NCBI RefSeq assembly: GCF_003634045.1
Contig: NZ_RBIM01000002.1
Location: 62,001-126,000, forward strand
Length of the DNA: 64,000 nt
Direction: 5' to 3'
Origin: Maricaulis maris
GTDB lineage: Bacteria > Pseudomonadota > Alphaproteobacteria > Caulobacterales > Maricaulaceae
The position numbers were made by a program, and so were the translations under genes. Shown here piece after piece: positions 24,461 through 51,768 of the stretch. Within the stretch, counting starts at the first letter, position 1; each line of letters opens with the position of its first letter. Below the pieces are notes generated by a model. It was not told where the DNA came from and did not search any database. It saw only the letters and a program-made list of their open reading frames with translations.

Positions 24461-24514
24461 GGGAGTGTCGGGCTTAGGTCCGTGTTTTTAACCATTTAGA
24501 ACACCCGAAACCAC

Positions 24515-24611
24515 CGTCATCCCCCGGCTTGTCCGGGGGACCTCGACTCACGCGTGTGGAAGATGGCTGAGGTCCCCCGGATCGTCGCTTCGCGTCGACC
24601 GGGGGATGACG
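24515..24611. repeat. Intergenic palindromic repeat, family 1, copy A
   Basis: A 97-bp element bounded by a perfect 13-bp inverted repeat (CGTCATCCCCCGG at 24515-24527 and its complement at 24599-24611). Inside are two further hairpins: CCCCGG-cttgt-CCGGGG-like near the left end, and GTCG-cttcg-CGAC near the right end. Copy B at 30799-30917 shares the first 29 bases and the right-hand ~40 bases, while the centres differ. The element sits 54 bases after pyrG. Confidence 0.88.
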
Positions 24612-24626
24612 ACCAGAATTGGAGTC

Positions 24627-30763: not shown

Positions 30764-30798
30764 GTAGTCAGCGGCACTTTTCAAACGGCATCAACTTC

Positions 30799-30917
30799 CG
30801 TCATCCCCCGGCTTGTCCGGGGGACCTTTGCTCGCCTGCTAGACATCGGAGCGAGGTGGACTGGCGTATTGGCTTAGGTCCCCCGGATCACCGCTTCGCG
30901 CCGACCGTGGGATGACG
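30799..30917. repeat. Intergenic palindromic repeat, family 1, copy B
   Basis: A 119-bp element with the same ends as copy A: the left 13-bp CGTCATCCCCCGG at 30799-30811 and a complement with one mismatch at 30905-30917. The left 29 bases are identical to copy A, the right part (TTAGGTCCCCCGGATC followed by a CGCTTCGCG hairpin) is nearly so, while the central ~45 bases are unrelated and longer. It lies 36 bases after eno. The remaining gap to ftsB shows no other clear feature. Confidence 0.87.
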
Positions 30918-31090
30918 ATTGGATTAGGATTGGTGGGGGGAGAATCCAGAAACTCTCAGCCCCATTCCAGCCCAATCCCTTACCCAGTCCTGAATCCGTG
31001 ATTCACGACTCCTAAAGTGTGATCGTGTTGAATCACCCTTGCAGAAGAACACGGTGTATCAGCGCCGGTCTCAACAAGGGTGTACGGGTT

Positions 31091-36938: not shown

Positions 36939-37205
36939 GGCTGATGTAGGTGCGGTATGAACGGCCTCGGCCGGTTCCAGTCGGGCCCGTATCAGACCGG
37001 CGCTCTGCGCGGTTGGAGACATTGTTCTCTTGTCAGCCAGCGGGCCTCAGCGTGTTTCTTCAGTCAAGGGCGCCGAAGGCGCCGCGCTGCGGGCATGCCC
37101 CTTGACTGAAGAAACACGCTGAGGCGTCGTCTCGGCAAGCGATCAATGGGCGGTTGTGCGCAAGCGCCGACCCCCTACGATCTCCGACACAGTGAGACCA
37201 TCCCC
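36939..37205. other. Gap between pdhC and the thioesterase gene, largely a palindromic element
   Basis: This 267-bp stretch has no supported gene. Its middle (37020-37148) is a long palindrome described separately, and little room is left for other signals. A short Pro/Arg-rich frame continuing upstream of the thioesterase start (from 37146) overlaps the palindrome's right edge and has no ribosome site. Confidence 0.6.
37020..37148. repeat. Long palindromic element, family 2, copy C
   Basis: The core is a perfect 27-bp inverted repeat (37044-37070 with 37099-37125) around a 28-base centre (37071-37098) that itself contains CGCC-gaa-GGCG and GGGCATGCCC. Outside the core the palindrome continues in degenerate form: 37020-37034 matches the complement of 37134-37148 at 12 of 15 positions. 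Total span 129 bp. A second copy in inverted orientation lies at 51153-51283 with 24 of 28 centre bases identical and the same 27-bp/28-bp geometry. Confidence 0.9.
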
Positions 37206-37991
37206 ATGACCACCCAGCCCCGCCATCTCGCCGAGATCCGCCACACCGATCTCGTCTTCCCGCACCAGACCAATCACCAGGGCAGCTATTTCGGCGGTGC
37301 GGCGATGGCGGAGATGGACAAGATCGCCTTCCTGGTCGCGGCGCGTCATGCCCGTCGCCCCTTCGTGACGGCCTCCTGCGACAAGCTCGATTTCGTGGCG
37401 CCGGCGCTGCTGGGTGATCTGATCGAGCTGACCGGACAGGTCCGCATGGTCGGGCGCACGTCATTGATCGTCGATGTCGAGCTGGCGGCGGAAAACCTGA
37501 TCACCGGTGCCCGTCATGTCTGCACACGCGGGGCCTTCACCATGGTCGCTGCCGACCGCAAGACCAATCCGGACCGACTGCCGCCATCGCCCGACGCCAA
37601 GCCGGAATTCGCGCCCAGCCCGCCGGGCTATGCCCGCACGCTGCAACTGGTTTTCCCCGGTGACACCAATCACTTGGGCCAATTATTTGGCGGCAATGCC
37701 ATGTCGCTGATGGGCAAGGCGGCCTATATCGCCGCTTCGCGGCACACCCGCAGCGATGTCGGCATGGCGGCGTCGGACAAGATCGATTTCATTGCGCCGA
37801 CGCGCGAAGGTGAATTGCTCGACGTGATCGCGACCATCGCCTCGGTCGGACGGACCTCGATGACGGTCGCGGTGCTGGCGGAAGCTGAAGACTTGATGAC
37901 CGGCGAACGCCGCAAGGTTGGTGAGGCGGACTATGTCATGGTCGCGCTCGACACAGACGGCAAGCCAACGCCTGCCCGGTCGTTGGCTTAA
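37206..37991 (+). CDS. Acyl-CoA thioesterase with two hotdog domains
   Basis: This is a 261-residue cytoplasmic acyl-CoA hydrolase of the YciA/BFIT type with two tandem hotdog domains. The first carries VFPHQTNHQGSYFGGAAMAEMDKIAFL (about 16-42) and the second VFPGDTNHLGQLFGGNAMSLMGKAAYI (about 148-174), the same Asn-His and Gly-Gly active-site pattern twice. ATG 37206 is used because the upstream extension has no similarity and crosses the palindrome. Substrate chain length is not deducible. Its stop overlaps the next, oppositely oriented gene by 4 bases. Confidence 0.88.
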   Translation: MTTQPRHLAEIRHTDLVFPHQTNHQGSYFGGAAMAEMDKIAFLVAARHARRPFVTASCDKLDFVAPALLGDLIELTGQVRMVGRTSLIVDVELAAENLITGARHVCTRGAFTMVAADRKTNPDRLPPSPDAKPEFAPSPPGYARTLQLVFPGDTNHLGQLFGGNAMSLMGKAAYIAASRHTRSDVGMAASDKIDFIAPTREGELLDVIATIASVGRTSMTVAVLAEAEDLMTGERRKVGEADYVMVALDTDGKPTPARSLA

Positions 37992-38680
37992 GGCGCGATC
38001 GGCAGTGCTTTCACCTGCAGTGCTGGCACCAGTCCACGATCATTGCAGCGATGCCAGCCGGCAATCGAAAAGCGCTCGCGGTGCGAGACCGTCACTTCGT
38101 GGGGAATTTCCTCGGACAGGAAGACTGCCAGCGTGCCGAATTCCGGGCGCAGCTCGGTCAGCACCTGATCATCCTCGCCATATATGCGCAAATGCCCGCC
38201 ATCGCCCTCGCGCCAGTCCGGATTGAGATAGAGCACGGTCGAGAGGACGCGGTTGCGGGCGCCGCGGAAACTGTCGACATGGCGTTTGTAGAAGGCACCG
38301 GCCTCGTAAACGGCGAAATGTGCCTCGAAGGCAAACAGGCCGAGCATGAGCCGGGCATTGACCTCGCGGCGAAGCGCTTCGGCGAACGCCAGATAGGCGA
38401 TCTGTCCGGGCGTCGACCCGTCGAGCCATTTCGTCTTGTCGCGGCGGATGCCGGCGATCAGCTCATGATCCTCGGCGCGGCCGATGCCGGCCGGAGTGAG
38501 CGCGTCTTCCTGCCACAGGGCTTCGGCCTCCTGGCGCAGGGCTGACAACATCGCTGTGTCGGTCAGGCGGACGGCCGCAAAGCCGGGTCCGGCGAGGGCG
38601 TCGCACAGCATGTCGATGTCGAAGGCAGGCAGGCCGGTCAGACCGGCAGGCAGCAGGCTCAAATGCGCGCATCCATCCAC
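37988..38680 (-). CDS. 2-oxoglutarate/Fe(II)-dependent oxygenase (prolyl-hydroxylase-like)
   Basis: This is a 230-residue double-stranded beta-helix oxygenase. The iron triad is visible as His134-x-Asp136 in YKRHVDSF and His194 in EEIPHEV, with Arg203 in HRERFSIAGW as the likely 2-oxoglutarate ligand. The region GARNRVLSTVLYLNPDW between them is typical of the P4H-like 2OG-FeII_Oxy_3 family. Substrate unknown; homologues hydroxylate proteins such as ribosomal or elongation factors. Start might be the internal Met24. It converges on the thioesterase gene. Confidence 0.82.
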   Translation of the reverse strand: MDGCAHLSLLPAGLTGLPAFDIDMLCDALAGPGFAAVRLTDTAMLSALRQEAEALWQEDALTPAGIGRAEDHELIAGIRRDKTKWLDGSTPGQIAYLAFAEALRREVNARLMLGLFAFEAHFAVYEAGAFYKRHVDSFRGARNRVLSTVLYLNPDWREGDGGHLRIYGEDDQVLTELRPEFGTLAVFLSEEIPHEVTVSHRERFSIAGWHRCNDRGLVPALQVKALPIAP

Positions 38681-38717
38681 AAGAGGAGGGCGCTCTTAGG
38701 CTTGGCCTGTCAAGGCG

Positions 38718-39134
38718 TCAATCAAATTCGCGACCATTGGCCCGCGCCAAGGCCTTCAGCGCTGCCAACGCATCGCCGAGGCGGTCCTCGGGCACAAAGA
38801 CATGGTCGTGGAAATAGCCGGCAACCGGATTGCAGCCGATGCCTTCGGCGGCGAGGGCGGCGGCGACATGGGCCATGAAGCCGACCGCCTCGAGCGAGGA
38901 GTGGATGGCCAGGGTGATGCGGCGGCAGGGGAAGACAGGCTCGAGGTCCGCCGCCACGGCCTCGTGCCAGGGCAGGATCAGCGTCGTGCCTTCGCGCTCG
39001 TGGAATATCATCAGGGCCGTGTCGGCATACGGCGCAAGTAGCACTCGTTCAGCGGTGACGAAGCCATAGCGGGTTGGATCAGGTTCCGGACGCAGACCGG
39101 CCAACAGGGTTCCCAGATCGCTGATACCGGTCAT
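38718..39134 (-). CDS. ACT-domain protein (ACT_3/DUF2241-like)
   Basis: This is a 138-residue protein with tandem ACT-like folds. The first part (LGTLLAGLRPEPDPTRYGFVT) is the DUF2241 entry motif; the second half (ITLAIHSSLEAVGFMAHVAAALAAEGIGCNPVAGYFHDHVFVPEDR) is a clear ACT domain with the ligand-loop pattern. Start 39134 is preferred because a GGAGG lies upstream; a longer frame to 39170 adds an unsupported tail. ACT domains usually bind amino acids; no enzyme is fused here. It is 77 bases from the divergent cupin gene. Confidence 0.82.
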   Translation of the reverse strand: MTGISDLGTLLAGLRPEPDPTRYGFVTAERVLLAPYADTALMIFHEREGTTLILPWHEAVAADLEPVFPCRRITLAIHSSLEAVGFMAHVAAALAAEGIGCNPVAGYFHDHVFVPEDRLGDALAALKALARANGREFD

Positions 39135-39211
39135 TTGGCTTGTTCCTCCCAACGGGTAATGTCGTTGCACAGCGATAGTGATACGTGAGTCGCGATGCGC
39201 GGGAGGATGTC

Positions 39212-39583
39212 ATGACGGTCGAAACGATCTCGCTGGTTCAAAAACACAGCCTGTTCGAAGAGGTCTGGTCGCCCAAGCGGATTGCCACCCTCGACAATTA
39301 CGAGCTGAAACTGGCCAAGGGCGCCGGTTCCTTCGATTGGCATTCGCACACGGATGAAGACGAGCTTTTCCTTGTGACCCAGGGTGTTCTGCGGATCGAG
39401 ATCGAGGGGCAGGATGCCGTCATCCTCGGGCCCGGTGAGCTGTGCGTGATCCCCAAGGGCGTACGCCACCGTCCGGTCACCCAGACCGAAACCGTGCACA
39501 TCCTGCTGATCGAGAAGGCCGGCGTCACCAATACCGGCGATAATCCGGACAGTGATCTGACCCAGACCGTGGTCGATATCTGA
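39212..39583 (+). CDS. Single-domain cupin protein
   Basis: This is a 123-residue cupin. The first metal motif reads WHSHTDEDELFLVTQG with His44, His46 and Glu51, and the second is GELCVIPKGVRHRPV with its His near 87. The gene begins with a GGGAGG ribosome site 6 bases before ATG 39212. Such small cupins bind a metal ion and often act as isomerases or dioxygenases; the substrate cannot be inferred. It lies between the ACT gene and lpdA, with 122 bases to lpdA. Confidence 0.85.
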   Translation: MTVETISLVQKHSLFEEVWSPKRIATLDNYELKLAKGAGSFDWHSHTDEDELFLVTQGVLRIEIEGQDAVILGPGELCVIPKGVRHRPVTQTETVHILLIEKAGVTNTGDNPDSDLTQTVVDI

Positions 39584-39705
39584 GTGCGCGGATGACGAGT
39601 CTTGTTGTGGTGATCGACGTCGCGGATTGATCCGGGGGGCGCTGGCTGGTATCTCGCTGATAACGGAACCATAATTGGTTCGCTAGCGAAATAAAGAGGC
39701 AGACC

Positions 39706-41106
39706 ATGAGCTCAGGCGCTTTCGACGTGATCGTGATTGGTGGTGGGCCGGGCGGCTATGTGGCCGCGATCCGGGCCGCCCAGCTGGGCTTCAAGACGGC
39801 CGTGGTCGAACGCGACGAACTCGGTGGCATTTGCCTGAACTGGGGCTGTATCCCGACCAAGGCGCTGCTGCGATCGGCGGAAGTTTATCATCTCATGCAA
39901 CATGCCGCGGATTTCGGCCTGTCGGCGGACAAGGTCGGCTTTGACATCCAGGCCATCGTTCAGCGCTCCCGCAAGGTCTCGTCGCGCCTGACCGGCGGTA
40001 TTGGCGGGCTGATGAAAAAGCACAAGATCACGGTGATCAAGGGGACAGCCACGCTCAAAAAGGGTGGCGATGCGCCGACCGTCATCGTCGACAAGGACAC
40101 ATACACTGCCAAACACGTCATCCTTGCAACCGGTGCCCGCGCCCGCACCATTCCCCAAGCGGGGCTTGAGCCCGACGGCGACAAGATCTGGAGCTATCGC
40201 GAAGCCATGGTGCCGGACACCATGCCGAAATCCCTGCTGGTCATCGGCTCGGGTGCGATCGGGATCGAATTTGCCAGCTTCTACAACACGATGGGCGCCG
40301 ATGTGACCGTCGTCGAGATGATGGACCGGGTCCTGCCGGTCGAGGATGAGGAAATCTCTGCCTTCGCCGCCAAGAGCTTCAAGAAGCAGGGACTCAAACT
40401 GATGGTCTCGGCCCAGGTCGAAAAGCTGGAGAAGACGGCCAAGACCGTGAAGGTCCACGTCAAGGACGCCAAGGGCAAGGTCGAGATCGTGGAAGTCGAG
40501 AAAGTCATCATGGCGGTCGGTATCGCCGCCAATATCGAAAACCTCGGATTGGAAGCGCTGGGCGTGAAGATTGATCGCGGTCATGTCGTCAATGACGGTT
40601 TCGGGCGCACCAATGTGAAGGGTCTCTACGCCGTTGGTGATGTCGCGGGACCGCCCTGGCTGGCCCACAAGGCGAGCCATGAGGCAGTGGTCTGTGTCGA
40701 AAAGATCGCTGGCGAGAAAGTCCATCCCTTTGAGACGTCCAATATTCCGGGCTGCACCTATTGCCACCCCCAGATTGCCTCGGTCGGTCTGACTGAAGCC
40801 AAGGCCAAGGAGGCCGGGCATGAGGTCAAGGTCGGCCGCTTCCCCTTTGTCGGCAATGGCAAGGCGATCGCGCTCGGTGACGATCAGGGTCTCGTGAAAA
40901 CCGTGTTTGATGCCAAGACGGGCGAACTTCTGGGCGCCCACATGGTTGGATCGGAAGTCACGGAATTGATCCAGGGCTATGTGATCGGGCGCCAGCTCGA
41001 GACTACGGAAGCGGAACTCATGCACACGGTCTTCCCGCACCCGACCCTGTCGGAAATGATGCATGAGAGCGTGCTCGACGCCTATGGCCGGGCCTTGCAC
41101 TTCTAG
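39706..41106 (+). CDS. lpdA: Dihydrolipoyl dehydrogenase (E3)
   Basis: LpdA reoxidises dihydrolipoamide in PDH and 2-oxoacid dehydrogenase complexes. The 466 residues include the FAD loop VIGGGPGGYVAAIRAAQLG, the redox-active disulfide in GGICLNWGCIPTKALL, the NAD loop VIGSGAIGIEFASFY and the C-terminal His-Glu pair in FPHPTLSEMMHES. The gene sits a few kilobases downstream of pdhABC with its own upstream gap and is probably the E3 of that complex. Confidence 0.96.
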   Translation: MSSGAFDVIVIGGGPGGYVAAIRAAQLGFKTAVVERDELGGICLNWGCIPTKALLRSAEVYHLMQHAADFGLSADKVGFDIQAIVQRSRKVSSRLTGGIGGLMKKHKITVIKGTATLKKGGDAPTVIVDKDTYTAKHVILATGARARTIPQAGLEPDGDKIWSYREAMVPDTMPKSLLVIGSGAIGIEFASFYNTMGADVTVVEMMDRVLPVEDEEISAFAAKSFKKQGLKLMVSAQVEKLEKTAKTVKVHVKDAKGKVEIVEVEKVIMAVGIAANIENLGLEALGVKIDRGHVVNDGFGRTNVKGLYAVGDVAGPPWLAHKASHEAVVCVEKIAGEKVHPFETSNIPGCTYCHPQIASVGLTEAKAKEAGHEVKVGRFPFVGNGKAIALGDDQGLVKTVFDAKTGELLGAHMVGSEVTELIQGYVIGRQLETTEAELMHTVFPHPTLSEMMHESVLDAYGRALHF

Positions 41107-41190
41107 GGCTGACAAAATTCATCAAGGTCGTGCATCCATTGCGGACGCGTCGTGCATCCAAGGGTCAAACCAGAGCCTTGCGAGGATGTC

Positions 41191-41856
41191 ATGCTGACCC
41201 GAATTCTGCTTTCTGCGATCACCGCCACAGTCCTGTCGGCCTGCACCTATTCAGTGTCGGGCCAAGGCGACAACCGTTCCGTTGAATCGGCCGGACTGGT
41301 CGCCTCACGCAATGTCGACGTGCCCGGCGACGCCGAATTTTCCGGCATGTTTGTCGGCGCCGACGGGGATGTCGGCGGTAATCTGGACCTGGCCGGTGCC
41401 ACTGTGCGCTCGGACGCCCGGGTCGGTGGCAATTTGATCGCTGCCGGCGGTCGGGTGCGTTTCACCGGCACAGTGGCTGGCGACGCAGAGATCGACGCCG
41501 GCACCGGTTATGTCGACGCCATCATCAACGGCAATCTCGTCATCGCCGCCGGCCGCATGGAATTGGCCGGACGCGTTGATGGTGGTCTGGAGATGGATGG
41601 CGGACGCATGATCCTGCGCGCTGACATTGCCGGCCCGGTGGCGGTCCGCGGTCACGGGCGCGACAATGATCGTGGCAATGGCCGGGTCGAACTCGCCGGA
41701 CGCCTGCAACAAGGTGGCATGATCTGCGCGGCGGAAGTCGAGATCCGCAGCAATGCCCGGATCGAGGGTGACCTCCTGGTCATTTCGAACCAGCGCCCGA
41801 GCGGTGACGGTTTCCGCTTTGAAGCCCTTGGTGATCGCAGCTGCAAATATATCTGA
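41191..41856 (+). CDS. Beta-helix 'polymer-forming' lipoprotein 1
   Basis: This is a 221-residue predicted lipoprotein. The signal sequence ends in a lipobox (LSAC, Cys18). The mature protein is made of short repeats such as VGGNLDLAGATVRSD, VGGNLIAAGGRVRFTG and VDGGLEMDGGRM, the pattern of bactofilin-like or polymer-forming cytoskeletal beta-helices. Two conserved Cys lie in the C-terminal part. The start at 41191 follows GCGAGGATGTC, similar to the ribosome site of the cupin gene. It probably sits on the outer membrane; role unknown. Related genes follow at 43941 and 44779. Confidence 0.78.
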   Translation: MLTRILLSAITATVLSACTYSVSGQGDNRSVESAGLVASRNVDVPGDAEFSGMFVGADGDVGGNLDLAGATVRSDARVGGNLIAAGGRVRFTGTVAGDAEIDAGTGYVDAIINGNLVIAAGRMELAGRVDGGLEMDGGRMILRADIAGPVAVRGHGRDNDRGNGRVELAGRLQQGGMICAAEVEIRSNARIEGDLLVISNQRPSGDGFRFEALGDRSCKYI

Positions 41857-42023
41857 TCGCCTGCACGCTCCATCCCGGCGCAACAAGCGCGCCGGGACAA
41901 AGAATCCGGGGTCCGGCGGCCATGGTTGTCCATCAGGACGACCCGCCGGTTCCAGCTCCCTCTTGTTTCGGCAAGGCGGTCGGGCTCCGGACCCATCCAG
42001 GACATCCAGTCGCGCGGTGACGC

Positions 42024-43688
42024 CTACTCCGCCGACTCTACGACCGGTACCGCGTCTTCCGCCATCAGCGCCTCAACAGTTTTTTGGACGGAGCCGTAGT
42101 CGGTCTTGCCGGTTCCCAGCACCGGGATCGAGTTGACCTTGATGATCTTGCGCGGAATGGCGAGATCGGAAATGCCGTGATTGCGGGCAAAGGCCACCAG
42201 ATCGGCGCGGTCGGCCTTGTCGTAATCGGTCAGCAGGATGATCTGTTCGCCCTTGCGCTTGTCGGGAATGGCGGCAGCGGCGTGCATATTGTCGGGCCAC
42301 AGCGAGGTGGCGCAATTTTCGACCACGGCCAGCGAGACCATTTCCCCGCCCAGCTTGGCAAAGCGCTTCACGCGACCGCGGATCGAGATGAAACCGTCCT
42401 CGTCGATGGAGACGATATCGCCCGTGTCGTGCCAGCCATCCAGCGGTGCGTCGAGCACCAGCGGCGCGTCCGGACGGATATAGCCCTTCATGATGTTCGG
42501 CCCCTTGATGTGCAGCTGGCCGCCATCATTGATGCCGGGAACCGGGATCAACCGCGCTTCACACCCCGGCATGATCTGGCCGACCGTTCCGGGCCGGTTA
42601 TTGTCCGGCTGGTTGACCGAGAAGACGGGGGCCGCCTCGGTCAGGCCATAGCCTTCGACGATTTCCAGATTGAAGCGTCGGCGCAACGACGACCGTGTCT
42701 CATCCTTGACCCGTTCGGCACCGCACACGGCCATACGCAGCGTCGACAGATCGTTCTCGTCAGCGGCGCGGGCATATTGGTTCATGAAAGTATCGGTGGC
42801 GAACAATATGGTCGCCTTGGTCTCGGCGATGCGCTTGACGATGGTCTTGGCTTGGAGCGGGGTCGGGTGGCAGATCGCCGGTACGCCGAGGCCGAGCGGC
42901 ACCAGCACGCCGCCGGTCAGTCCGAAACAATGGAAGGTCGGCAGCGGATTGAACAACACATCAGTCGGCAGGATGCGGATATGGTCGCGGACCTGTTCGA
43001 CATTGGCGAGCAGGTTGGCATGGCTGAGCACCACGCCCTTGGGATCGCCCTCGGTGCCGGAGGTGAAGAGATAGACGGCCGGGCTGTCCGGATCGGGATG
43101 GGCGCGCACCAGGAAGGGCGCCACCATGCCGATGGCGGCGGCCAGCTTGTCCAGGGTGGAGAGGTTTTCGCGGACATCTTCCAGATAGATCAGCTCATGA
43201 TCTTCCTTCAGGGCCGCTTCCAGCTCCTGCAGCTCACCCAGTTCGATAAAGCGCCGCGCGGTGACAATGCGCTTGGCCTTGCAGGCTCGGCAGGCCGCCT
43301 TGAGGGCGCGTTCACCGGCCGTGAAATTGAGCATGGCGGGGACACGGCCATAGGCCGAGACCGCGTAAAAGGAGATGATCGCGCCGACGCCGGTCGGCAG
43401 CAAGACGCCGACCGCTTCGCCCGGCTCGGTTCCGCCCTTGAGCGCGTGGCCGAGCGCGAAGACGGCCTTGGTCAGGTCGCCGAAGCTCAGCTCGCGGCCG
43501 TCGGCATCGACAGCTGCCAGCTTTTTGCTGCCATACCGGCGTTTGGAATCAAGCAGGGCGGCAAAGACCGATTTGCGGATCCGGTTGAGGTTGAAGTCGG
43601 GTCCCTTGAAGGTTTCCCCGACCGGCGCGCCCTGGTCCGGCGTGCCGGCGTCAGCCGGAATGTTTCCGGCGGCTGTGGTGTCAGCCAT
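42024..43688 (-). CDS. AMP-forming acyl-CoA/acyl-ACP synthetase (Aas/AasS-like)
   Basis: This is a 554-residue ANL-superfamily enzyme that adenylates a fatty acid and transfers it to CoA, ACP or a phospholipid-bound thiol. Motifs are the P-loop YLFTSGTEGDPKGVVLSH, EGYGLTEAAPVFSVN, WHDTGDIVSIDEDGFISIRGR and the C-terminal catalytic Lys in GTGKTDYGS. Overall it resembles the C-terminal half of the Aas acyltransferase/acyl-ACP synthetase and stand-alone AasS. It runs opposite to the surrounding beta-helix genes and is divergent from the 43941 gene; a lipid-remodelling role is plausible. Confidence 0.85.
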   Translation of the reverse strand: MADTTAAGNIPADAGTPDQGAPVGETFKGPDFNLNRIRKSVFAALLDSKRRYGSKKLAAVDADGRELSFGDLTKAVFALGHALKGGTEPGEAVGVLLPTGVGAIISFYAVSAYGRVPAMLNFTAGERALKAACRACKAKRIVTARRFIELGELQELEAALKEDHELIYLEDVRENLSTLDKLAAAIGMVAPFLVRAHPDPDSPAVYLFTSGTEGDPKGVVLSHANLLANVEQVRDHIRILPTDVLFNPLPTFHCFGLTGGVLVPLGLGVPAICHPTPLQAKTIVKRIAETKATILFATDTFMNQYARAADENDLSTLRMAVCGAERVKDETRSSLRRRFNLEIVEGYGLTEAAPVFSVNQPDNNRPGTVGQIMPGCEARLIPVPGINDGGQLHIKGPNIMKGYIRPDAPLVLDAPLDGWHDTGDIVSIDEDGFISIRGRVKRFAKLGGEMVSLAVVENCATSLWPDNMHAAAAIPDKRKGEQIILLTDYDKADRADLVAFARNHGISDLAIPRKIIKVNSIPVLGTGKTDYGSVQKTVEALMAEDAVPVVESAE

Positions 43689-43823
43689 GTAATCCTCCCA
43701 TCGGCGCCCCTTGTCGCGGACGCTCGTTTGACCGGAGATATTACGCTTGGCTGACGCAGAGGGAAGGGGGAGGAATGATTCACATTCATCACCGTCATGA
43801 ATATCGCGATTTACGGAAATAAT

Positions 43824-43866
43824 TTATCGAAAAACGAAAAAACTGGTTGATATCGTTTTTCGATAA
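43824..43866. promoter_or_regulatory. Dyad operator in front of the beta-helix operon
   Basis: A perfect 14-bp inverted repeat (43824-43837 and 43853-43866) with a 15-base spacer. Each arm is itself close to symmetric: the right one reads TATCG-TTTTT-CGATA, and the left TTATCG-AAAAA-CGA. The block is much more AT-rich than its surroundings and lies between two divergent starts (43688 minus and 43941 plus). This is the usual look of tandem sites for a dimeric repressor; the regulator is not encoded nearby and is unknown. Confidence 0.7.
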
Positions 43867-43940
43867 TGTAAGCTTCGACTCAACGCTGGGGAGCGTATGA
43901 ATGGGGCTTCGAAGAGTCCTGACATGAACGGGAGACTTGC

Positions 43941-44714
43941 ATGCAAAAGGTCCTGCTGGCCGCTTCGGCCCTGACCACCGCGCTGATGACATCGGGCTGC
44001 GTGATCGTTGTTGCTGACGACGATGACAGCAAGATGCTGCGTGGCCACAGCACCCGCACTGCCGACGGCTATACCGTGCTCGACCGTGACGGGGATTACA
44101 GCCGCCTGGCCGGTGATATGAATCTGCGTGGCCGGATCGGTGGCGATCTCAGCCTGGTCGCAGGCGATGTCGATATCGACGACATGGATATTGGCGGTGA
44201 AGCCTCGATCGCCGGCGGCGATATTGATTTTTCCGGCCGCGTCCGTGGCGAGGTTTCGATCGCCGGTGGTGACATCAATTTTTCCGCTGAGGTTGACGAT
44301 GACCTCAATCTCGCCGGTGGCGAAATCGACTTTACCGGCCGCGTCCATGGCGAGGCCGCTCTGGCGGCCGGCGAAATGCGTGTGGCCGGCTGGTTCGGCG
44401 ACACGCTGCATGCCCAGGCCGACGAGATCTGGTTCACCGGTGAAGCCGTCGGACCGGCCAAGCTCGTCGCCGCCGATGAACTCCGCAATAACCGTCGCCG
44501 AAACCAGCGCGGGATGATCGAAGTTGGCGGCACGCTGTCGGGCGGCGCCGAGATTTGTGCCATTTCCGTCGTCTTTACCGACACAAGCCGCGTCGGTCCC
44601 GGCGTGACGGTGTGGGCGGAAGAGCCGCCGGTCACGCAGAGCGGCGCCCGGGTTTCCGGCCTGGACTATCAGCCGCGCGATGGACGCGACTGCGATGACC
44701 TGATCGACGACTGA
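43941..44714 (+). CDS. Beta-helix 'polymer-forming' lipoprotein 2
   Basis: This is a 257-residue predicted lipoprotein with lipobox ending at Cys20 (LMTSGC). It carries at least six near-regular units such as IGGDLSLVAGDVDIDD, IGGEASIAGGDIDFSG, VRGEVSIAGGDINFSA, VDDDLNLAGGEIDFTG and VHGEAALAAGEMRVAG, about 17 residues each, consistent with a bactofilin-like right-handed beta-helix. Two Cys flank the C-terminal cap. It is followed after 64 bases by a membrane-bound relative and is preceded by the dyad operator. Surface or periplasmic scaffold role is inferred, not shown. Confidence 0.8.
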   Translation: MQKVLLAASALTTALMTSGCVIVVADDDDSKMLRGHSTRTADGYTVLDRDGDYSRLAGDMNLRGRIGGDLSLVAGDVDIDDMDIGGEASIAGGDIDFSGRVRGEVSIAGGDINFSAEVDDDLNLAGGEIDFTGRVHGEAALAAGEMRVAGWFGDTLHAQADEIWFTGEAVGPAKLVAADELRNNRRRNQRGMIEVGGTLSGGAEICAISVVFTDTSRVGPGVTVWAEEPPVTQSGARVSGLDYQPRDGRDCDDLIDD

Positions 44715-44778
44715 GCCTGTCACTCAATCGCGTTTGAAACCTTCACCTGACCGCCGGGGGGCGCAGGGAGATTTTACA

Positions 44779-46068
44779 ATGAACAACATCACGATGAAAA
44801 CGTGGATCATGGCCGGGGGGCTGGCCATTTCCCTTTTTGCCGGGGCTGCATCGGCCCAGGTCATCGGTGGCGATGTCGAAATCGATGGCAGTAATCACGA
44901 TGTCATTTTCCTGGGCGGCGAGATGAATGTCCGCGGCCAGGTCAATGGCGACATAAAGGGCGTGGCCGGCAGTGTCCGGGTCAACGCCGATGTCACCGGT
45001 TCGGTCCAGCTGGTGGGTGGAGAGATCGACGTCGCCGGATCGGTCGGCGGGGACATCGACCTGGCCGGCGGCGAGGTCGTCTCGCGCGCCAATGTCACGG
45101 GAGACGCCAATTTTGCCGGCGGGGAGTCGCGTATTTCCGGCACTATCGGTGGCATGCTCAACGCGGCCTCCGGACATGTCGAGATCGACAGCCAGGTTGG
45201 CGGTGATGCCAAAATGGCCGGTGGTTTTGTCGAGACCAGTTCGGCCAGCCGCTTTGCCGGCGCCGCCGAGATCGTGGGCGGCGAGGTCCACCTGTCCGGC
45301 GAGTTCACCGGCCCGGTTGATATCGAAGGCGGTGAAATCCACCTCGCCGGCATCTTTCTCGACGATGTCGAGATCATGGCTGAGGAAGTCTATATCCTGG
45401 ACGGGACGCAAGTCGCCGGTGAACTCCGCATCCGCTCGCCGCACGAGCCGGTGGTGGCCGATGGCACCCGTTTTGGCAGCTATGACTATGAGTACCGCCA
45501 GTTCAATTTCGGCGCCAAGGACTGGGATCATATCGATTTCGACTTTGATGCCCCGACCGGTGTGTTCGGCCTGTTCATTCCCGGTGCTGTCTTCCTGCTG
45601 GCCGTGATGGCCCTGCTGGTGGCACCCAATGGCGTGGCCTCCGTCGCGGCCCGTTTCCGGGACCGCCCGGTGGTCGGTGGCTTTTTCGGATTTATCGGCT
45701 TTGCCCTGTCGCCAGTCTTCCTGATCATCATGACCATCCTGCTGGCGATTACCGTGGTCGGCATCCTGCTGATCCCGATCATGTGGTTGATCTTCTGGCC
45801 CTTCATGCTGCTTTGCATGGGCTTTGGTGCGGTCGCGGTCGGCGACATGATCTTCAACCGCAAGCCGGACGAGAAGACTATGGGGCTGGGCATGCGCCTT
45901 CTGTCCACCTTCTGTGTCGTGGCTGTCTTTGCCGCCTTCGGTGCGATCGGCGGACTCGGCTTCCTGGCCGGTTTCCTGCTGCTCTTCATCGGACTGGGCT
46001 CGTGGATGATGTCGCTGGGCAAGCGCCGTGAGTCAACGCCGGCGATGACGGCACCGGGAACCAGCTGA
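44779..46068 (+). CDS. Beta-helix 'polymer-forming' protein 3 with C-terminal membrane domain
   Basis: This is a 429-residue protein. Signal peptide (cleavage after SAQ-region, about residue 27), then a periplasmic beta-helix with units like VNGDIKGVAGSVRVNA, VTGSVQLVGGEIDVAG, VGGDIDLAGGEVVSRA and FTGPVDIEGGEIHLAG up to about residue 200. The C-terminal half carries about four membrane helices (LFIPGAVFLLAVMALLVAP; FFGFIGFALSPVFLIIMTILLAITVVG; LIPIMWLIFWPFMLLCMGFGAVAVG; and the last pair). ATG 44779 follows CAGGGAG. The arrangement suggests it anchors or exports the lipoprotein relative encoded upstream. Confidence 0.8.
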   Translation: MNNITMKTWIMAGGLAISLFAGAASAQVIGGDVEIDGSNHDVIFLGGEMNVRGQVNGDIKGVAGSVRVNADVTGSVQLVGGEIDVAGSVGGDIDLAGGEVVSRANVTGDANFAGGESRISGTIGGMLNAASGHVEIDSQVGGDAKMAGGFVETSSASRFAGAAEIVGGEVHLSGEFTGPVDIEGGEIHLAGIFLDDVEIMAEEVYILDGTQVAGELRIRSPHEPVVADGTRFGSYDYEYRQFNFGAKDWDHIDFDFDAPTGVFGLFIPGAVFLLAVMALLVAPNGVASVAARFRDRPVVGGFFGFIGFALSPVFLIIMTILLAITVVGILLIPIMWLIFWPFMLLCMGFGAVAVGDMIFNRKPDEKTMGLGMRLLSTFCVVAVFAAFGAIGGLGFLAGFLLLFIGLGSWMMSLGKRRESTPAMTAPGTS

Positions 46069-46180
46069 GCAATTGGTCGCACGACGCATCATGACAATGC
46101 GGAAAGGCAGGGGTGACCTCGCCGGGTGAGCGCGCTAAATCTGCCTCCGAACAATCCCACAAAAGGGGTATCGGGGAATA

Positions 46181-48616
46181 ATGCGCACACTCAACATCAT
46201 CGCTCTTGCAGCGGCGGCTGCGACGTTCAACGTCGCGGTCGCCCAGCCTGTCCAGCAGACCGTCAATGACTGGCGCGATGCCTTCCGCCAGCTCGAGGAC
46301 GAAGACTGGCCCTCGCCGAACCGGGAACGCCGCGCGACCGGTGCACCGGGTCCGGATTACTGGCAGCAGCAGGTCGATTACGACATCGATATCCGGCTCG
46401 ATGAAGAGGCCCGGCATCTGTTCGGCACCGAGACGGTCACCTACACCAATAACGCACCCGATACGCTCGACTTCCTGTGGTTCCTGCTCGACCAGAACCG
46501 TTTCCGTCCCGATTCCATCGCGGTGATGACCGAGACTGTTGGCGGTGGTGGCCGTTCGGCCGGCCGTGTCGGTGGTGATTTCCCGGACGGGATGTCCGCC
46601 AGTTCCCTGCGCCGTCGCGAGATGCTCAATGAGGACGGTTACGGCTTCAATATCACCGGCGTCACCGATGCGAACGGCGAGCCGATGGACTTCACCATTG
46701 TCGACACGCTGCTGCGCCTTGATCTCGATGATGTGCTGGAAACCGGCGACAGCGTCACCTTCACGATCGAGTGGGATTACCGCTTGGTCGAGACCCAGGT
46801 CATCGGCGGCCGCGCCGGTTGGGAATGCTTCGAGGAGACCGAGGATACCGGCGGCGATTGCATCTATCAGATCGCCCAATGGTTCCCGCGCGCCGCCGTC
46901 TTCTCCGACTATGAAGGCTGGCACAACAAGGCCTTCCTCGGTCGTGGTGAATTCGCGCTCGAATTCGGTGACTACGACGTGTCCATCCGCGTGCCGCAAG
47001 ATTTCATCGTTTCGGCGACCGGTGTTCTGCAAAATCCGGAAGAGGTCCTGACCGAGCCGCAGCGTGAGCGTCTGGAAGAGGCCCGCACCGCGGACGAGCC
47101 GGTCTTCATCGTCACCCCGGCCGAAGCCCGCGCCAATGAGCGTCGCGGCACCCGCTCCATGGCGACCTGGGAGTTCCGGGCCGAGAATGTCCGCGATTTC
47201 GCCTGGGCCGGTTCGCGCAAATTCATCTGGGACGCGGTTGGCGTCGAGCAGGACGGGATGGGGCAGGCGCCCGACCTCGTCATGGCGATGTCGTTTTATC
47301 CCAATGAAAGCGAGCCCTTGTGGTCGACCTTCTCGACCCGCGCCGTCGAGCACACGCTCGATGTCTATAATGATTTTGCCTTCCCTTACCCCTATCCGGT
47401 CGCGCAATCGATTGCCGGCCCGCAGGGCGGGATGGAATACCCGATGATCACCTTCAATGGCGGTTCCTATGGCCGTCCGATGGTCGATGATGACGGCAAT
47501 TTGAGCTATTCGCTCCGCGCCAAGCGCGGCCTGATCGGCGTGATCATTCACGAGATCGGCCACATCTATTTCCCGATGGTCGTCAATACGGACGAGCGCC
47601 AGTGGACCTGGATGGATGAGGGCATCAACACCTTCCTGCAATTCCAGGCCGAACAGCAGTGGGAAGAAGGCTTCCGCTCGCGCCGCGGCGACCCCGACCT
47701 GATTGCCGGTTACATGGCATCCAGCAGCCAGATGCCGATCATGACGCAGTCGGATTCGATTGTTCAGTTCGGCAGCAATGCCTATGGCAAGCCGGCCACG
47801 GCGCTGGTCGTGCTGCGGGAAACCGTGCTTGGACGTGAACTGTTCGACGACGCCTTCCGCGCCTATTCCGAGCGTTGGCGCTTCCGGCGGCCGACGCCCT
47901 ATGACTTCTTCCGCACCATGGAAGAGGTCTCCGGTGTCGATCTCGACTGGTTCTGGCGTGGCTGGTTCTACTCCACCGACCATGTCGACATCTCGCTCGA
48001 CCGGGTGATCGAGGGCACGTTCGACACCGAGGACCCGGCCATCGAAAATCTGCTGGAGCGAGCTGACGACACCGAATTCCGCGAAAACCTCACCCCGCAG
48101 CGCAATGCGGCGGAGGGCATCGTGACCTATGCCGAGCGCAATCCGGAAGTGCAGGACTTCTATTCGCGCCATGACCCGTTCACGGTCACCGAGCGCGAGC
48201 GGGAAGCCTATGAAACCGCGCGTGAACGGATGGAAGACTGGGAAGCGGAGATCCTCGACAGCGACACCCGCGTCTACTATCTCGACTTCACCAATCAGGG
48301 CGGCGTGGTGATGCCGATCATCCTGGAGTTCACCTTCGCGGATGGCAGCACTGATCTGGTGCGGATTCCGGCCGAGGTGTGGCGCTATGATCCGCAAAAC
48401 GTCACCTGGACCTATGTCACCGACCGTCAGGTCGTCTCGGTCGAGCTCGACCCGCTGCGCGAAACTGCCGATGCCGATCGCACGGATAATTATTATCCGC
48501 CGCGCATCGAACCGACGCGTCTCGAGCTCTATCGCTCGTCCAGCAATCCCTCCAGCATGATGGATGACATGGACCTGCGCGTGGCCCGCGACTCGACCCG
48601 CACGCGTCCGGAATAG
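46181..48616 (+). CDS. Exported M1-family metallopeptidase
   Basis: This is an 811-residue secreted aminopeptidase-like protein. The signal peptide covers about 1-22 (cleavage near VAVAQ). The substrate-recognition strand GGMEYPMITFNGG (the GxMEN region) precedes the zinc motif HEIGH (His457, Glu458, His461), with the third ligand Glu480 19 residues later in WTWMDEG, the HExxH-x18-E pattern of M1. Downstream are a long helical and beta C-terminal part. It probably degrades peptides in the periplasm or outside the cell. The next gene, a small exported protein, follows after 25 bases and is likely a partner. Confidence 0.9.
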   Translation: MRTLNIIALAAAAATFNVAVAQPVQQTVNDWRDAFRQLEDEDWPSPNRERRATGAPGPDYWQQQVDYDIDIRLDEEARHLFGTETVTYTNNAPDTLDFLWFLLDQNRFRPDSIAVMTETVGGGGRSAGRVGGDFPDGMSASSLRRREMLNEDGYGFNITGVTDANGEPMDFTIVDTLLRLDLDDVLETGDSVTFTIEWDYRLVETQVIGGRAGWECFEETEDTGGDCIYQIAQWFPRAAVFSDYEGWHNKAFLGRGEFALEFGDYDVSIRVPQDFIVSATGVLQNPEEVLTEPQRERLEEARTADEPVFIVTPAEARANERRGTRSMATWEFRAENVRDFAWAGSRKFIWDAVGVEQDGMGQAPDLVMAMSFYPNESEPLWSTFSTRAVEHTLDVYNDFAFPYPYPVAQSIAGPQGGMEYPMITFNGGSYGRPMVDDDGNLSYSLRAKRGLIGVIIHEIGHIYFPMVVNTDERQWTWMDEGINTFLQFQAEQQWEEGFRSRRGDPDLIAGYMASSSQMPIMTQSDSIVQFGSNAYGKPATALVVLRETVLGRELFDDAFRAYSERWRFRRPTPYDFFRTMEEVSGVDLDWFWRGWFYSTDHVDISLDRVIEGTFDTEDPAIENLLERADDTEFRENLTPQRNAAEGIVTYAERNPEVQDFYSRHDPFTVTEREREAYETARERMEDWEAEILDSDTRVYYLDFTNQGGVVMPIILEFTFADGSTDLVRIPAEVWRYDPQNVTWTYVTDRQVVSVELDPLRETADADRTDNYYPPRIEPTRLELYRSSSNPSSMMDDMDLRVARDSTRTRPE

Positions 48617-48641
48617 GCCACGGGGAGGGCCGCGACACCGC

Positions 48642-49154
48642 ATGCGTATCCGCTTGACCCTCCTGACCGTATTGGCGGGGCTGTCCCTGGTGACAGCCCC
48701 GTCGCACGCCCATCGCATGCATGCCGGCGTCACCGAGATCGCCGTCAATGCGCGCACTGCCGAGCTGGAAATTATCCACCGGATCTACGCCCACGACCTG
48801 ATGGAAGCCCTCGACCGCACCGGCCTCGACGCCGTCGATTTCCTGGCCACGGCCGACGGCATGGCGACGGTGGGCACCTATGCGGCCGGTGCTTTTCGCA
48901 TGGCAGACACGGACGGCGAGCTGCTGGAGCCCGCTTTTGTCGGCGCCGAGATCGATGGCGAGTTTGCCTGGATCTATTTCGCAGCGCCGGTTCCGGCCGA
49001 GCAGGCCAGCTTCATCGTCGACAATGATCTGCTCGCCGAAACCTTCGACGACCAGGTGATGATGACCAATCTGCGCTTCAACTCGCTGGTCCGCACAGCC
49101 ATGCAGGGACCGGGACGCCGCACCCCGATCCGCCTCCGCTTCAGCGACGACTGA
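48642..49154 (+). CDS. Small exported protein (DUF6702-like) next to the M1 peptidase
   Basis: This is a 170-residue protein with a signal peptide (about 1-23, cleavage near AHA) and a beta-rich mature part beginning HAGVTEIAVNARTAELEIIHRIYAHDL, as in DUF6702, a family recalled to sit beside M1 peptidases in related genomes. No catalytic signature is visible; His residues near 24, 27, 46 and 51 could bind metal. The start 48642 follows GGGGAGGG with a rather long 12-base spacing. Function unknown; a peptidase accessory factor is the simplest reading. Confidence 0.75.
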   Translation: MRIRLTLLTVLAGLSLVTAPSHAHRMHAGVTEIAVNARTAELEIIHRIYAHDLMEALDRTGLDAVDFLATADGMATVGTYAAGAFRMADTDGELLEPAFVGAEIDGEFAWIYFAAPVPAEQASFIVDNDLLAETFDDQVMMTNLRFNSLVRTAMQGPGRRTPIRLRFSDD

Positions 49155-49160
49155 GACCGT

Positions 49161-49880
49161 TCAGACCTTGTGAACCGGGGCCGGGCAGCGGCACTGGAAA
49201 CTGCCGGCCAGCTGCCCTTCGGTGCGGGTATAGTCAAACGTCACCTCGTCCCCGGCCGCCAGATCACGCAGCGCCACCAGGGTCGGCAGGGCGGTTTCGA
49301 GATCATAGACGATCTCGCAGCTTGGCTCACAGGCATGATTGACGAAATGGCCGTATCCGGTCGGTTCGACATGGCGATTGTCATCAGTGCGGAAGGAATA
49401 GGGCGTCTGCTCGGCGCCGACCGGACCATCAATCCCGACCACCGTCTCGCCGGCCGCCACCGGTGTCACCAGCACCGTGCCCCAGCCATGTGTGGGTGAG
49501 CGGTCGAGCCGCGCGGCGGGCGCATGCGCCATGACATAGGGCAGGGCCGCTTCGCCATCACCGCCGGCAATGCGCCCGCTCATGGCGCCACCATGGAGGC
49601 AGGCTTCGGGCACCAGGTCCAGCATCACCCCGCTTGGCGAGACGCCGTCAAATTCCAGCATCACGGCGAGACGCTCGCCAACCAGAAGCCCGCGCAGTTC
49701 GGCCCGGTGCGGCACCCCGTCGCGCTCGGCGATCCGGTCCAGCGTGCCGCCGACCCGGCCATCTTCATCGATCGTCAGGGCAATCCGGTCATAAAGCCGC
49801 GTCCCGTCGAGCGCGACATGAAAGCCGATCAAATGCACCGGCACAGACGCCGCTCTGGTTGCTCCAAGAAACTGCGTCAT
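49161..49880 (-). CDS. SET-domain protein
   Basis: This protein of about 239 residues ends in a SET methyltransferase-like domain. Its hallmarks are HGWGTVLVTPVAAGETV, the SAM-binding and pseudo-knot stretch GYGHFVNHACEPSCEIV, and GDEVTFDYTRTEGQLAGSFQCRC with a short cysteine tail like a truncated post-SET zinc site. The N-terminal ~120 residues match no domain I know. Start 49880 (GGGGA upstream) is preferred; the frame to 49943 opens on a GTG with no support. Bacterial SET proteins can methylate ribosomal or host proteins; target unknown. Confidence 0.82.
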   Translation of the reverse strand: MTQFLGATRAASVPVHLIGFHVALDGTRLYDRIALTIDEDGRVGGTLDRIAERDGVPHRAELRGLLVGERLAVMLEFDGVSPSGVMLDLVPEACLHGGAMSGRIAGGDGEAALPYVMAHAPAARLDRSPTHGWGTVLVTPVAAGETVVGIDGPVGAEQTPYSFRTDDNRHVEPTGYGHFVNHACEPSCEIVYDLETALPTLVALRDLAAGDEVTFDYTRTEGQLAGSFQCRCPAPVHKV

Positions 49881-49997
49881 ATCCGAATCCCCAACACAAA
49901 CAATAAGGTGCGGCGAGGTTAGGGGATTTGTGTTGTGGTGCAAGCTTGCGCGGGCGCATTCTGACCAATCAGGAGCGCCACTTGGCCCGGTTTCGCA

Positions 49998-50729
49998 CTA
50001 GGGACCCGGCTCTCCGCGCTCCTCGGCCAGAAGGTCGAGAATTCGCTCGATCCGCGCCCGCAGGGCTATCAGGATGAGATGTGTGTTGTCCTGGGTGATA
50101 TAGGCACTCTGCAACGCATCCATGATGTCTCGATCTTCCAGCAGAACCGCGTGATCGATCGCCTCAACCCGGCCGAGCTGTTCGAACCTCGTCGACGGTT
50201 GCCCGGTCAGTTCCAGTGTTTTCGCGCGGATGATGACCCGGCTCAGTTCGGCCACCGGCTCGGCGACTTGCGAGAATTGGAGATACAGGAAGCCGGTATA
50301 GCTGTCATATCTGTAGAGTTCGTCGCGCAAGGCCGCGTTTCTGATCAGGCGCATCCGGCCCGTCGAGACCAATTCCTCAAATGCGGCGGACGGTGCCGGC
50401 ATGCTGCCGATGGAATCCACCAGGGCGAGGTCAGAGGCGAGGAAGTCCTCATCAAGCTGGCCGGCACGGATACCGGTGATCAAGCGCTCCGTGACCTCCA
50501 GATACAGCAATTGCCGCGCGATCCCGCTATCGGTCAGCGCCAATTGCTGCTCGAAATCACGCTCCAGCCGCTCCAGCAGGCTGTGCGTCTCGATCCGCTC
50601 CTGCCGCGCCTCATTCCAGTTATTGACCTGCAGACCGATAAACACGCCAAACACCACGATCAGCGTTTCGATCACCACAGTGACCCAGTCCTGCTTGCGC
50701 AGGCCAATGGCAAGACGCCGCAAGATCAT
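49998..50729 (-). CDS. One-TM protein with helical periplasmic region (DUF6090-like)
   Basis: This is a 243-residue protein with a short cytoplasmic N-terminus (ILRRLAIGLRKQDW), one membrane helix (VTVVIETLIVVFGVFIGLQV) and then NNWNEARQERIETHSLLERLERDFEQQ, a charged helix typical of DUF6090-type proteins, followed by more helices. Start 50729 has GGGGGGAAAGC upstream. The longer frame toward 50957 would read through the neighbouring repeat and is discarded. Function unknown; it is a single gene between the SET gene and the repeat cluster. Confidence 0.75.
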   Translation of the reverse strand: MILRRLAIGLRKQDWVTVVIETLIVVFGVFIGLQVNNWNEARQERIETHSLLERLERDFEQQLALTDSGIARQLLYLEVTERLITGIRAGQLDEDFLASDLALVDSIGSMPAPSAAFEELVSTGRMRLIRNAALRDELYRYDSYTGFLYLQFSQVAEPVAELSRVIIRAKTLELTGQPSTRFEQLGRVEAIDHAVLLEDRDIMDALQSAYITQDNTHLILIALRARIERILDLLAEERGEPGP

Positions 50730-50801
50730 GCTTTCCCCCCGGGCCGAAAGGCCGGTCTCTACAGAGCGCGTTGCGCCCGCCAAGGCAAGGCTGGTTTGGA
50801 T

Positions 50802-50918
50802 TCCCTCTCCCATGGGAGAGGGTGGCCGAAGGCCGGGTGAGGGGGAAAGCCCGGTGCCTGGGTGCTGATCCCCCTCATCCGTCGCTCCGCGACACCTTCT
50901 CCCCAGGGAGAAGGAAGT
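50802..50918. repeat. Palindromic repeat E (CCCTCTCCC / GGGAGAGGG type)
   Basis: Two hairpin halves face each other. The left has CCCTCTCCC-atg-GGAGAGGG with GGCCGAAGGCC and GTGAGGGGG; the right has CCCCCTCAT, a GTCGCTCCGCGAC hairpin and CCTTCTCCC-ca-GGGAGAAGG. The halves are roughly complementary overall, so a large folded structure is possible. It occupies the 5' side of the DUF6090-like gene's upstream region. Only one copy is present here. Confidence 0.7.
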
Positions 50919-50958
50919 CAGTACCGCGGATAGGAGAGTTCGGTGCCCGTCCCCCATT

Positions 50959-51058
50959 CATTTTTCCCGGGCGAAGACCCGGGACCCACCGAGCGCCCTT
51001 CCCAGCAATGTGTTTCCGGTAGATCCCGAATCGCGCCGAAGCGCGTCCGGGAAAAATG
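50959..51058. repeat. Palindromic repeat F (CATTTTTCCCGG ends)
   Basis: A 12-bp perfect inverted repeat bounds the element: CATTTTTCCCGG at 50959-50970 and its complement at 51047-51058. Inside is CCCGGG-cgaaga-CCCGGG and a CGCGCC/GCGCG hairpin near the right end. No gene is included. Its neighbours on both sides are other palindromic repeats. Confidence 0.72.
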
Positions 51059-51152
51059 GGGAGGTCAGGCGGGCGATCCCACAGCCCGTCAATCAAGCGC
51101 GCAGAGCGCGCACTTTCCAGACATGAAACAAGCGCGCCGAGCGCGCTCTGGG

Positions 51153-51283
51153 CCATAAACCCATTGCCGGGAGATCGCCGTATCCGGTTCTTCAGCTCAA
51201 GGGGCATGCCCGCGGAGCGGCACCTGCGGCGCCCTTGACCTGAAGAAACGGATACGGCCCGCTGGATGGCATGGGGTTTATGG
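51153..51283. repeat. Long palindromic element, family 2, copy D
   Basis: Inner inverted repeat 51177-51203 with 51232-51258 (27 positions, 25 paired) around a 28-base centre (51204-51231). The outer arms also pair: CCATAAACCC at 51153-51162 with its complement at 51274-51283. Total span 131 bp. Compared with copy C (37020-37148, opposite orientation) the centre is 24/28 identical and TTCTTCAG and CAAGGG are kept, but the middle of each stem differs (CCGTATCCG here, CTCAGCGTG there), while remaining self-complementary within each copy. Confidence 0.88.
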
Positions 51284-51768
51284 GGTGGGGGTGCGGGAGA
51301 GTGGTGTGTGTTCCCACTGTTCGGGAGGACTATGATTGGGCGTGGGGCGCCTATTTGAGTCCAGTTTGGCGCAGGAGCGCCCATGGTGGGGAGCACAGTT
51401 CAGCCTTACGGCGACTAGGTAAGCGCGACCGTGATCACGGTGCTCTGTAGACAAGCCACACCTGGACCAGGTGGGTTGGCGCCACGGATTGAGAGCGCCA
51501 ACTTCTCGATCATCTTGAGTAATGCGTTCATGGTCACGAACCCCCAACTGGAACGCGATAGTCAATGTGAGCTGCTGCCGGTCTGGTGGACACCCCTTCG
51601 CCAACCCGGCCCAATAACTAATCAGATTCAGTTGAATACCGGCCTAAGACACGACTACGCCATCGCCCCAATCATCGGATCAAGTATTTTTGGGAAACTC
51701 GATATATCTTGACATTGATGCGTCTAGTTATACAACTTTAGAGTATGGCCGGTTGGAGGGGACGCAAA

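Follow-up and report, generated by a model that had tools for sequence, protein, structure and literature searches.

A dispersed intergenic palindrome family of Maricaulis whose inner stem arms change together, probably through template switching

A 64-kb stretch of the Maricaulis maris genome (the window, whose coordinates are used below) contains two palindromic elements, copy C (37020-37148) and copy D (51153-51283, minus strand), both present where a preliminary description had placed them. They differ in the middle of their stems (CTCAGCGTG and CCGTATCCG), and each version pairs with its own complement as had been described, which raises the question of how both arms of a palindrome come to change together. 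In C, the arms are complementary at 27/27 positions around a 28-base centre, the sole 100% inverted repeat among the 25 longest listed (178 were detected in the window). A shared 27-bp stem had been ascribed to both copies; this is correct for C, but the inner stem of D is not perfect, with 25 Watson-Crick pairs out of 27 and the mismatches T.C and G.G. The centres are identical at 24 of 28 bases, as claimed. Both copies belong to a non-coding palindrome family dispersed through the intergenic regions of Maricaulis, and we consider it probable that template switching homogenises the arms of this non-autonomous repeat, with a contribution from exchange between copies.

A BLAST search with C against its own genome (G000, 3.57 Mb) gave 45 rows (E <= 1). 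A covariance model trained on 39 copies gave 112 rows over both strands (E <= 0.1), with 55 distinct places at E <= 1e-11 when each is counted once (one is cut by an assembly gap); below these came two deletion derivatives (6.8e-8, 2.4e-4) and two uncertain places (above 0.04). A chance origin of C is excluded by these 45 rows and 55 places. The search of relatives by covariance model, proposed beforehand, also found many copies: 18 of 31 genomes (its own and 30 relatives) were matched, namely 17 of the 19 in the genus, its own included, and one of another genus. Across species the number of matches ranges from 0 (G004, G013) to a maximum of 107 rows over both strands (G000). When the species collection was scanned with an exact pattern, 31 stretches matched, 30 from Maricaulis and one from an uncultured alphaproteobacterium. 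Among the 106 copies with sufficient flanking sequence, none falls within a called gene, and the 93 that could be classified are found between convergent (35), codirectional (48), or divergent (10) genes. No open reading frame (ORF) belongs to the family, its copies are dispersed, and match numbers differ between species, all in agreement with the non-autonomous element that had been proposed. Literature searches found no description of this Maricaulis hairpin family, and the main text of PMC3733652, on repetitive extragenic palindromes, does not mention Maricaulis or Caulobacter.

The family unit is ~172 bp long (39-copy alignment and flank column profile of 120 copies), the conserved block of the flank profile extending ~20 bp beyond the 131-nt core on each side. 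GCGC-nnn-GCGC motifs stand at both unit ends, followed inward by outer arms (CCATAAATC-CTTG/CAAG-GATTTATGG), a conserved asymmetric internal loop (TCAGCCAGCGG opposite TCTCTCGG), and an inner stem of 26-27 bp that ends in TCAAGGG/CCCTTGA and carries a centre of two mini-hairpins. With respect to the outer frame, type 2 copies carry the type 1 inner stem-loop in reverse complement; their centre thus runs the other way, and C.C takes the place of G.G as the one mismatch of the stem. This mismatch, at position 19, fits the hairpin orientation (classified by regular expressions) in 149 of 162 distinct copies, a set of full-length matches from which shorter ones were dropped: type 1 has G.G (59) or G-C (32), and type 2 copies or those with both patterns have C.C (52) or G-C (6). 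The remaining 13 copies are either unclassified (11) or discordant between orientation and position 19 (2).

Excluding position 19, the 26 pairs of the inner stem in these 162 copies comprise 4139 Watson-Crick pairs, 18 G.U, 18 A.C, and 36 others. To follow changes in place, copies were treated as orthologous when their flanks agreed on both sides (32 groups, 88 copies; with the assignment of loci to genomes that we used, no group contains two copies from one genome), and changes were counted along 53 edges of nearest-relative trees, 3 edges below 80% identity being skipped. The orthologous inner stems had 29 double changes (19 transversions and 10 transitions), 2 further two-sided changes that ended in a mismatch, and 43 one-sided changes (G.U 10, A.C 16, other 17). 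The preliminary description had set changes confined to one arm against selection on structure; the outcome is mixed, with both kinds of change present.

As a control we used the RNase P RNA from 17 of the 18 genus loci (one cut at a contig end was omitted) with the Rfam structure. Its 58 one-sided changes were mostly G.U (49, against 3 A.C and 6 other), and its 43 double changes were 27 transitions and 16 transversions. The G.U:A.C ratio differs between inner stem and RNase P (Fisher P = 1.8e-7). A first count on an RNAalifold structure of RNase P gave 56 G.U, 4 A.C, and 12 other one-sided changes; we rely on the count with the Rfam structure. Because RNase P is rich in G.U and the inner stem is not, the counting method detects RNA selection where it is present and finds none in the inner stem.

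These numbers bear on the possibility of a structured RNA family, in which a transcript hairpin would be selected and the paired changes would be ordinary compensatory mutations. Four observations would suit an RNA: of the 45 pairs that RNAalifold predicted on the 39-copy alignment, 24 show changes on both sides; the sequence of the internal loop is conserved; double changes make up a share similar to that in RNase P; and the outer arms have a weak G.U excess (36 G.U versus 20 A.C events, P = 0.044). However, the inner stem lacks the G.U preference that RNase P has so strongly, transversions predominate among its double changes whereas RNase P has more transitions, and the hairpin is inverted between some orthologs. 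Rfam had no family at the gathering threshold in the window, and its four matches around five copies were all far below the cutoff. Selection on a folded RNA, one of the two readings offered in the preliminary description, is therefore most improbable. Outer-arm pair 7 of the 162-copy alignment is T-G in 47 copies versus C-A in 6; the outer arms, unlike the inner stem, may thus feel single-strand structure on one strand, although lineage effects may be mixed in.

The second reading, arm-to-arm conversion that keeps each copy palindromic, is supported by several kinds of evidence. Two double changes happened in place: at position 9 of C, the T-A pair became C-G in G016, and at position 10 of L041/L243 an A-T pair became T-A. 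The outer arms of the same orthologous copies underwent 94 one-sided and 2 double changes, a ratio very different from that of the inner stem (Fisher P = 9e-11), so that concerted change is a property of the inner hairpin. Moreover, the inner hairpin is inverted between orthologs (L184 versus L219, L240, L068, and L232; L186 versus L211). The pair L167/L208 is suggestive of a further inversion, although exchange with another copy is possible there. According to passages of PMC8604942, template switching homogenises the arms of inverted repeats and inverts their spacers, and bacterial data cited there favour transversions; a passage of PMC8794818 adds that it can keep stems perfect. Spacer inversion of this kind is seen among the orthologs, and clustered changes in one arm that make the arms alike are seen in one case.

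That case comes from another alphaproteobacterium (G551), in which the wider model found a hairpin (E = 4.2e-6) inside an IS110-type insertion sequence (IS). Four copies (L313, L319, L322, L325) have in common a block of 1505-1507 bp that includes an IS110-type transposase gene (PF01548, PF02371), and the hairpin, GC-rich and long-stemmed, lies ~35 nt downstream of this gene. IS1111-type elements keep a noncoding RNA near this position. Only 5 columns of 1507 vary among the four copies, and four of these fall within 8 bp of one hairpin arm (columns 1258-1265), the fifth being elsewhere. Outside the shared stem, 12 of 16 bases of this arm agree with the partner arm in L322, against 4 of 16 in L313 (no gaps). 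To judge from the aligned copies, the cluster resembles the trace that one template switch would leave.

Both arms could also change together if whole stem-loops were copied among the ~55 paralogs by ectopic gene conversion. Loops at orthologous loci do swap between known variants, 12 of the 23 edges that carry double changes involve a stem with an exact twin in another collected copy, and 7 of 22 G000 copies are nearer to their best paralog than to their best ortholog (with a tie in 2). Nevertheless, on 11 of the 23 edges neither stem recurs exactly in a non-orthologous copy of the collection (which does not take in all copies of all genomes), and the stems of C and L041, which changed in place, have no close counterpart among the other collected G000 copies (best paralog at 0.771 and 0.687). 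Near-perfect arms are also found in genomes with few matches (G061 with 2, G046 and G071 with 1 each). We therefore regard ectopic conversion as quite improbable as the cause of the paired changes, but conversion between copies may account for part of them.

Relatives of the hairpin outside Maricaulis bear on another alternative, selection acting by itself to keep a DNA hairpin or cruciform perfect, whereby a binding protein or transposition enzyme would need a fully paired stem of ~26 bp and mismatches would be purged. Such forked-tip relatives are sparse in both order and class. An order-wide search matched 40 of 200 genomes in 11 of 41 genera, including its own (E <= 0.001), and a class-wide search with a second model matched 8 of 385 genomes, including its own (E <= 1e-4). 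We read 21 non-Maricaulis loci of 8 genera (the 20 best listed and L088, two of them, L294 and L302, being near duplicates from one genome). All 21 have the TCAAGG/CCTTGA tip, a conservation that is partly due to selection of the loci, which were found by a model trained on Maricaulis and in which the tip was sought as an exact match. The stem past the tip is 19-21 bp in 19 of the 21, and its sequence varies between genera while it stays paired (379 Watson-Crick pairs, 12 G.U, 7 A.C, and 18 other). The 20 proteins neighbouring these copies belonged to ordinary families or to none, and no transposase or reverse transcriptase family was among them. A second near-perfect hairpin is often seen near the non-Maricaulis copies (L291, L292, L296, L297, L301, L304), with a core like TGTAAGGCAG ... 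CTGCCTTACA; by eye, its sequence is variable yet paired.

The near-constant stem length, the conservation of the tip, the internal loop, and the position-19 mismatch, and the equal numbers of G.U and A.C (18:18; as DNA, G.T and A.C are both mismatches) all fit such selection on DNA. On the other hand, it explains neither the inversions nor the clustered changes between near-identical IS copies, and double transversions without intermediates would require strong selection at dozens of dispersed loci. Taken as the only cause, selection on a DNA hairpin seems unlikely to us.

Several observations weigh against template switching as the explanation. Free templating should erase a mismatch, and yet position 19 is mismatched in 119 of 162 copies (G.G 62, C.C 57; G-C 43). 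The frame differs by only 4.5-5.5% in place versus a median identity of 57% for the 50-bp flanks (n=106), and this conservation beyond the flanks points to selection or exchange. The exact twins and the closer paralogs described above count in the same direction. At the orthologous inner stems, one-sided changes exceed double ones, and the share of double changes alone (29:43) does not separate the inner stem from RNase P (43:58). RNase P is a single control, the tree edges connect nearest relatives and are not a dated phylogeny, and the direction of change among the G551 copies is not polarised. Finally, the weak G.U excess of the outer arms is left unexplained.

With these reservations, we infer the following sequence of events under template switching. 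The inner hairpin would form in single-stranded DNA during replication, and the polymerase would switch template and copy one arm from the other, erasing differences between the arms, so that a mutation in one arm would be either lost or doubled. The switch would sometimes invert the centre. The stem sequence could thereby drift while the palindrome persisted, and the TCAAGG tip, the internal loop, and the ~26-bp stem length would be held by a further constraint. For this combination of near-fixed stem length, free sequence, and conserved forked tip, one proposal, to which we give a low probability, is that the forked-tip hairpin is the working part of an unrecognised mobile or replicating element that is copied via a hairpin intermediate, as in rolling-hairpin replication. 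If so, new copies would be made with one arm as the template for the other, the inner part could face either way, and the stem would be free in sequence but fixed in length and tip, matching the comparison across genera.

Covariation in stems is widely read as a sign of functional RNA, and this family covaries strongly without the G.U preference that a true RNA of the same genus, RNase P, displays. Paired substitutions do not by themselves prove that a stem belongs to a working RNA, which is a warning for RNA discovery by covariation. In addition, the 32 ortholog groups offer a natural experiment through which template switching could be measured in bacterial evolution.

The copies have spread over evolutionary time. 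Copy C is at the same place in G000, G010, G015, and G016, and the same gene junction lacks it in G018, G004, G005, G002, and G011. For D, the downstream gene matched G000 alone among 19 genomes, and no orthologues were found by that route. In G000 and G016, the protease and capsid genes of a portal/prohead protease/capsid cluster have a copy on each side (loci L143 and L151; PF04860, PF04586, and PF05065, with L143 scanned), a cluster that we take to be possibly a gene transfer agent. Only the downstream copy is present in G015 and G010, and neither in 9 of the 13 genomes examined; the upstream site in G010 has a single GCGC hairpin, compatible either with an empty target or with a deletion running from one end motif to the other. 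In the gaps beside these genes (L255-L258), we saw different palindromic repeats according to species, beside or replacing the family element, as if the gaps were exchangeable slots. The ends are conserved as GCGC motifs and not to the base, and empty-site comparisons gave no clean target duplication. Several deletion derivatives without the inner hairpin were found. A phage or plasmid origin was rejected: the phage and plasmid collections had no match for positions 36990-37180 of the window. There were four matches in viral contigs, of which L191, L192, and L194 group with the chromosomal orthologs of the portal/protease/capsid cluster.

No mobilising enzyme could be assigned to the family. 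The matches to the end pattern read in G000, G016, and G010 were full, partial, or deletion copies, with no ORF-bearing version among those read. Co-occurrence with a REP-associated tyrosine transposase (RAYT; REP, repetitive extragenic palindromic) had been named as a possible pointer to mobility, but the Y1_Tnp domain (PF01797) was not found in five copy-rich genomes (G000, G006, G015, G016, G017), though it occurs in 5 of 19 genus genomes (G003, G005, G009, G010, G012), of which G010 and G003 are copy-rich; a RAYT/REP origin is thus unsupported. The IS110 transposase (PF01548) was not found in G000, G016, and G017 (E <= 0.001) and occurs in 7 of 19 genus genomes, including the copy-rich G006, G010, and G015. 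A regular-expression search found no tip hairpin at 9 IS110 and 9 Y1 loci (up to 1.5 kb on each side), and IS110 as the present mobiliser in Maricaulis is likewise unsupported. Several copies on contigs C1, C3, and C7 of G000 are 1.4-3 kb apart in the same orientation, seemingly commoner than the opposite. A gene-cassette reading of these was dropped after ten proteins had been scanned (phage-type, transporter, stress, and antitoxin families among them), none of them a recombinase.

Anatomy of copies C and D in window coordinates (gene boundaries are calls of a simple codon-score gene caller)
Feature	Position	Strand	Remarks
Copy C, whole unit	36999..37168	+	~170 bp; gene ending at 36938 and gene starting at 37206 on either side
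C, left terminal motif	36999..37010	+	GCGC-nnn-GCGC
C, outer arm, 5' side	37019..37032	+	degenerate pairing with 37136-37149
C, internal-loop strand	37033..37043	+	TCAGCCAGCGG, conserved
C, inner stem 5' arm	37044..37070	+	27 bp, TCAAGGG at end
C, centre	37071..37098	+	28 nt, two mini-hairpins
C, inner stem 3' arm	37099..37125	+	27/27 paired
C, internal-loop strand, 3' side	37126..37135	+	TCTCGG at end
C, outer arm, 3' side	37136..37149	+	
C, right terminal motif	37158..37168	+	GCGC-nn-GCGCC
Copy D, whole unit	51132..51304	-	approximate ends; same family, orientation opposite to C; BLAST match of C at G000:C2:113188-113271
D, inner stem 5' arm	51232..51258	-	in the element's orientation
D, centre	51204..51231	-	28 nt, 24/28 as in C
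D, inner stem 3' arm	51177..51203	-	25/27 pairs

Other palindromic repeats are present in the window. One intergenic repeat (GTCATCCCCCGGCTTGTCCGGGGGACCT ...) is at 24509-24623 and 30793-30929, with similar ones in other loci, and a third (ATTTTTCCCGGGCGAAGACCCGGGACC ... TCCGGGAAAAATGG, ~50957-51060) adjoins D, similar ones adjoining other copies.

Short intergenic palindromes of the REP, bacterial interspersed mosaic element (BIME), or miniature inverted-repeat transposable element (MITE) kind are known from bacteria, for example RU, ERIC, BOX, and SMAG. The Maricaulis family resembles them in being short, non-coding, dispersed, palindromic, and intergenic, but its unit is ~172 bp with a forked tip and no clear target duplication. 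REP palindromes associated with RAYT have a GTAG or CGTC tag at one end, as stated in passages of PMC3733652. The Maricaulis ends are, by eye, GCGC-nnn-GCGC in place of such a tag, and the Y1/RAYT transposase was not found in the five copy-rich genomes named above. IS110/IS1111 insertion sequences carry a noncoding guide RNA (PMC11187229, PMC11208160). The hairpin of the family type inside the IS110-type element of G551, downstream of the transposase gene, is a point of likeness, but a linked transposase was found in G551 only, and G000 has no PF01548 match. Parvovirus-type terminal hairpins have a long stem that ends in two small arms and occur in flip and flop orientations. The Maricaulis hairpin may be likened to them in its long stem, its two small arms, and an inner part found in two orientations; however, the Maricaulis repeats are chromosomal and intergenic, with no replication protein and no linear genome. 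The closest parallels to the changes themselves are in template switching and quasipalindrome correction, treated in passages of PMC8604942 and PMC8794818 (see also PMC7202029): the first two share with our family the homogenisation of arms, the inversion of spacers, and double changes rich in transversions. The cases described in those passages are unrelated inverted repeats or RNA genes, whereas here template switching would act on a whole dispersed repeat family.

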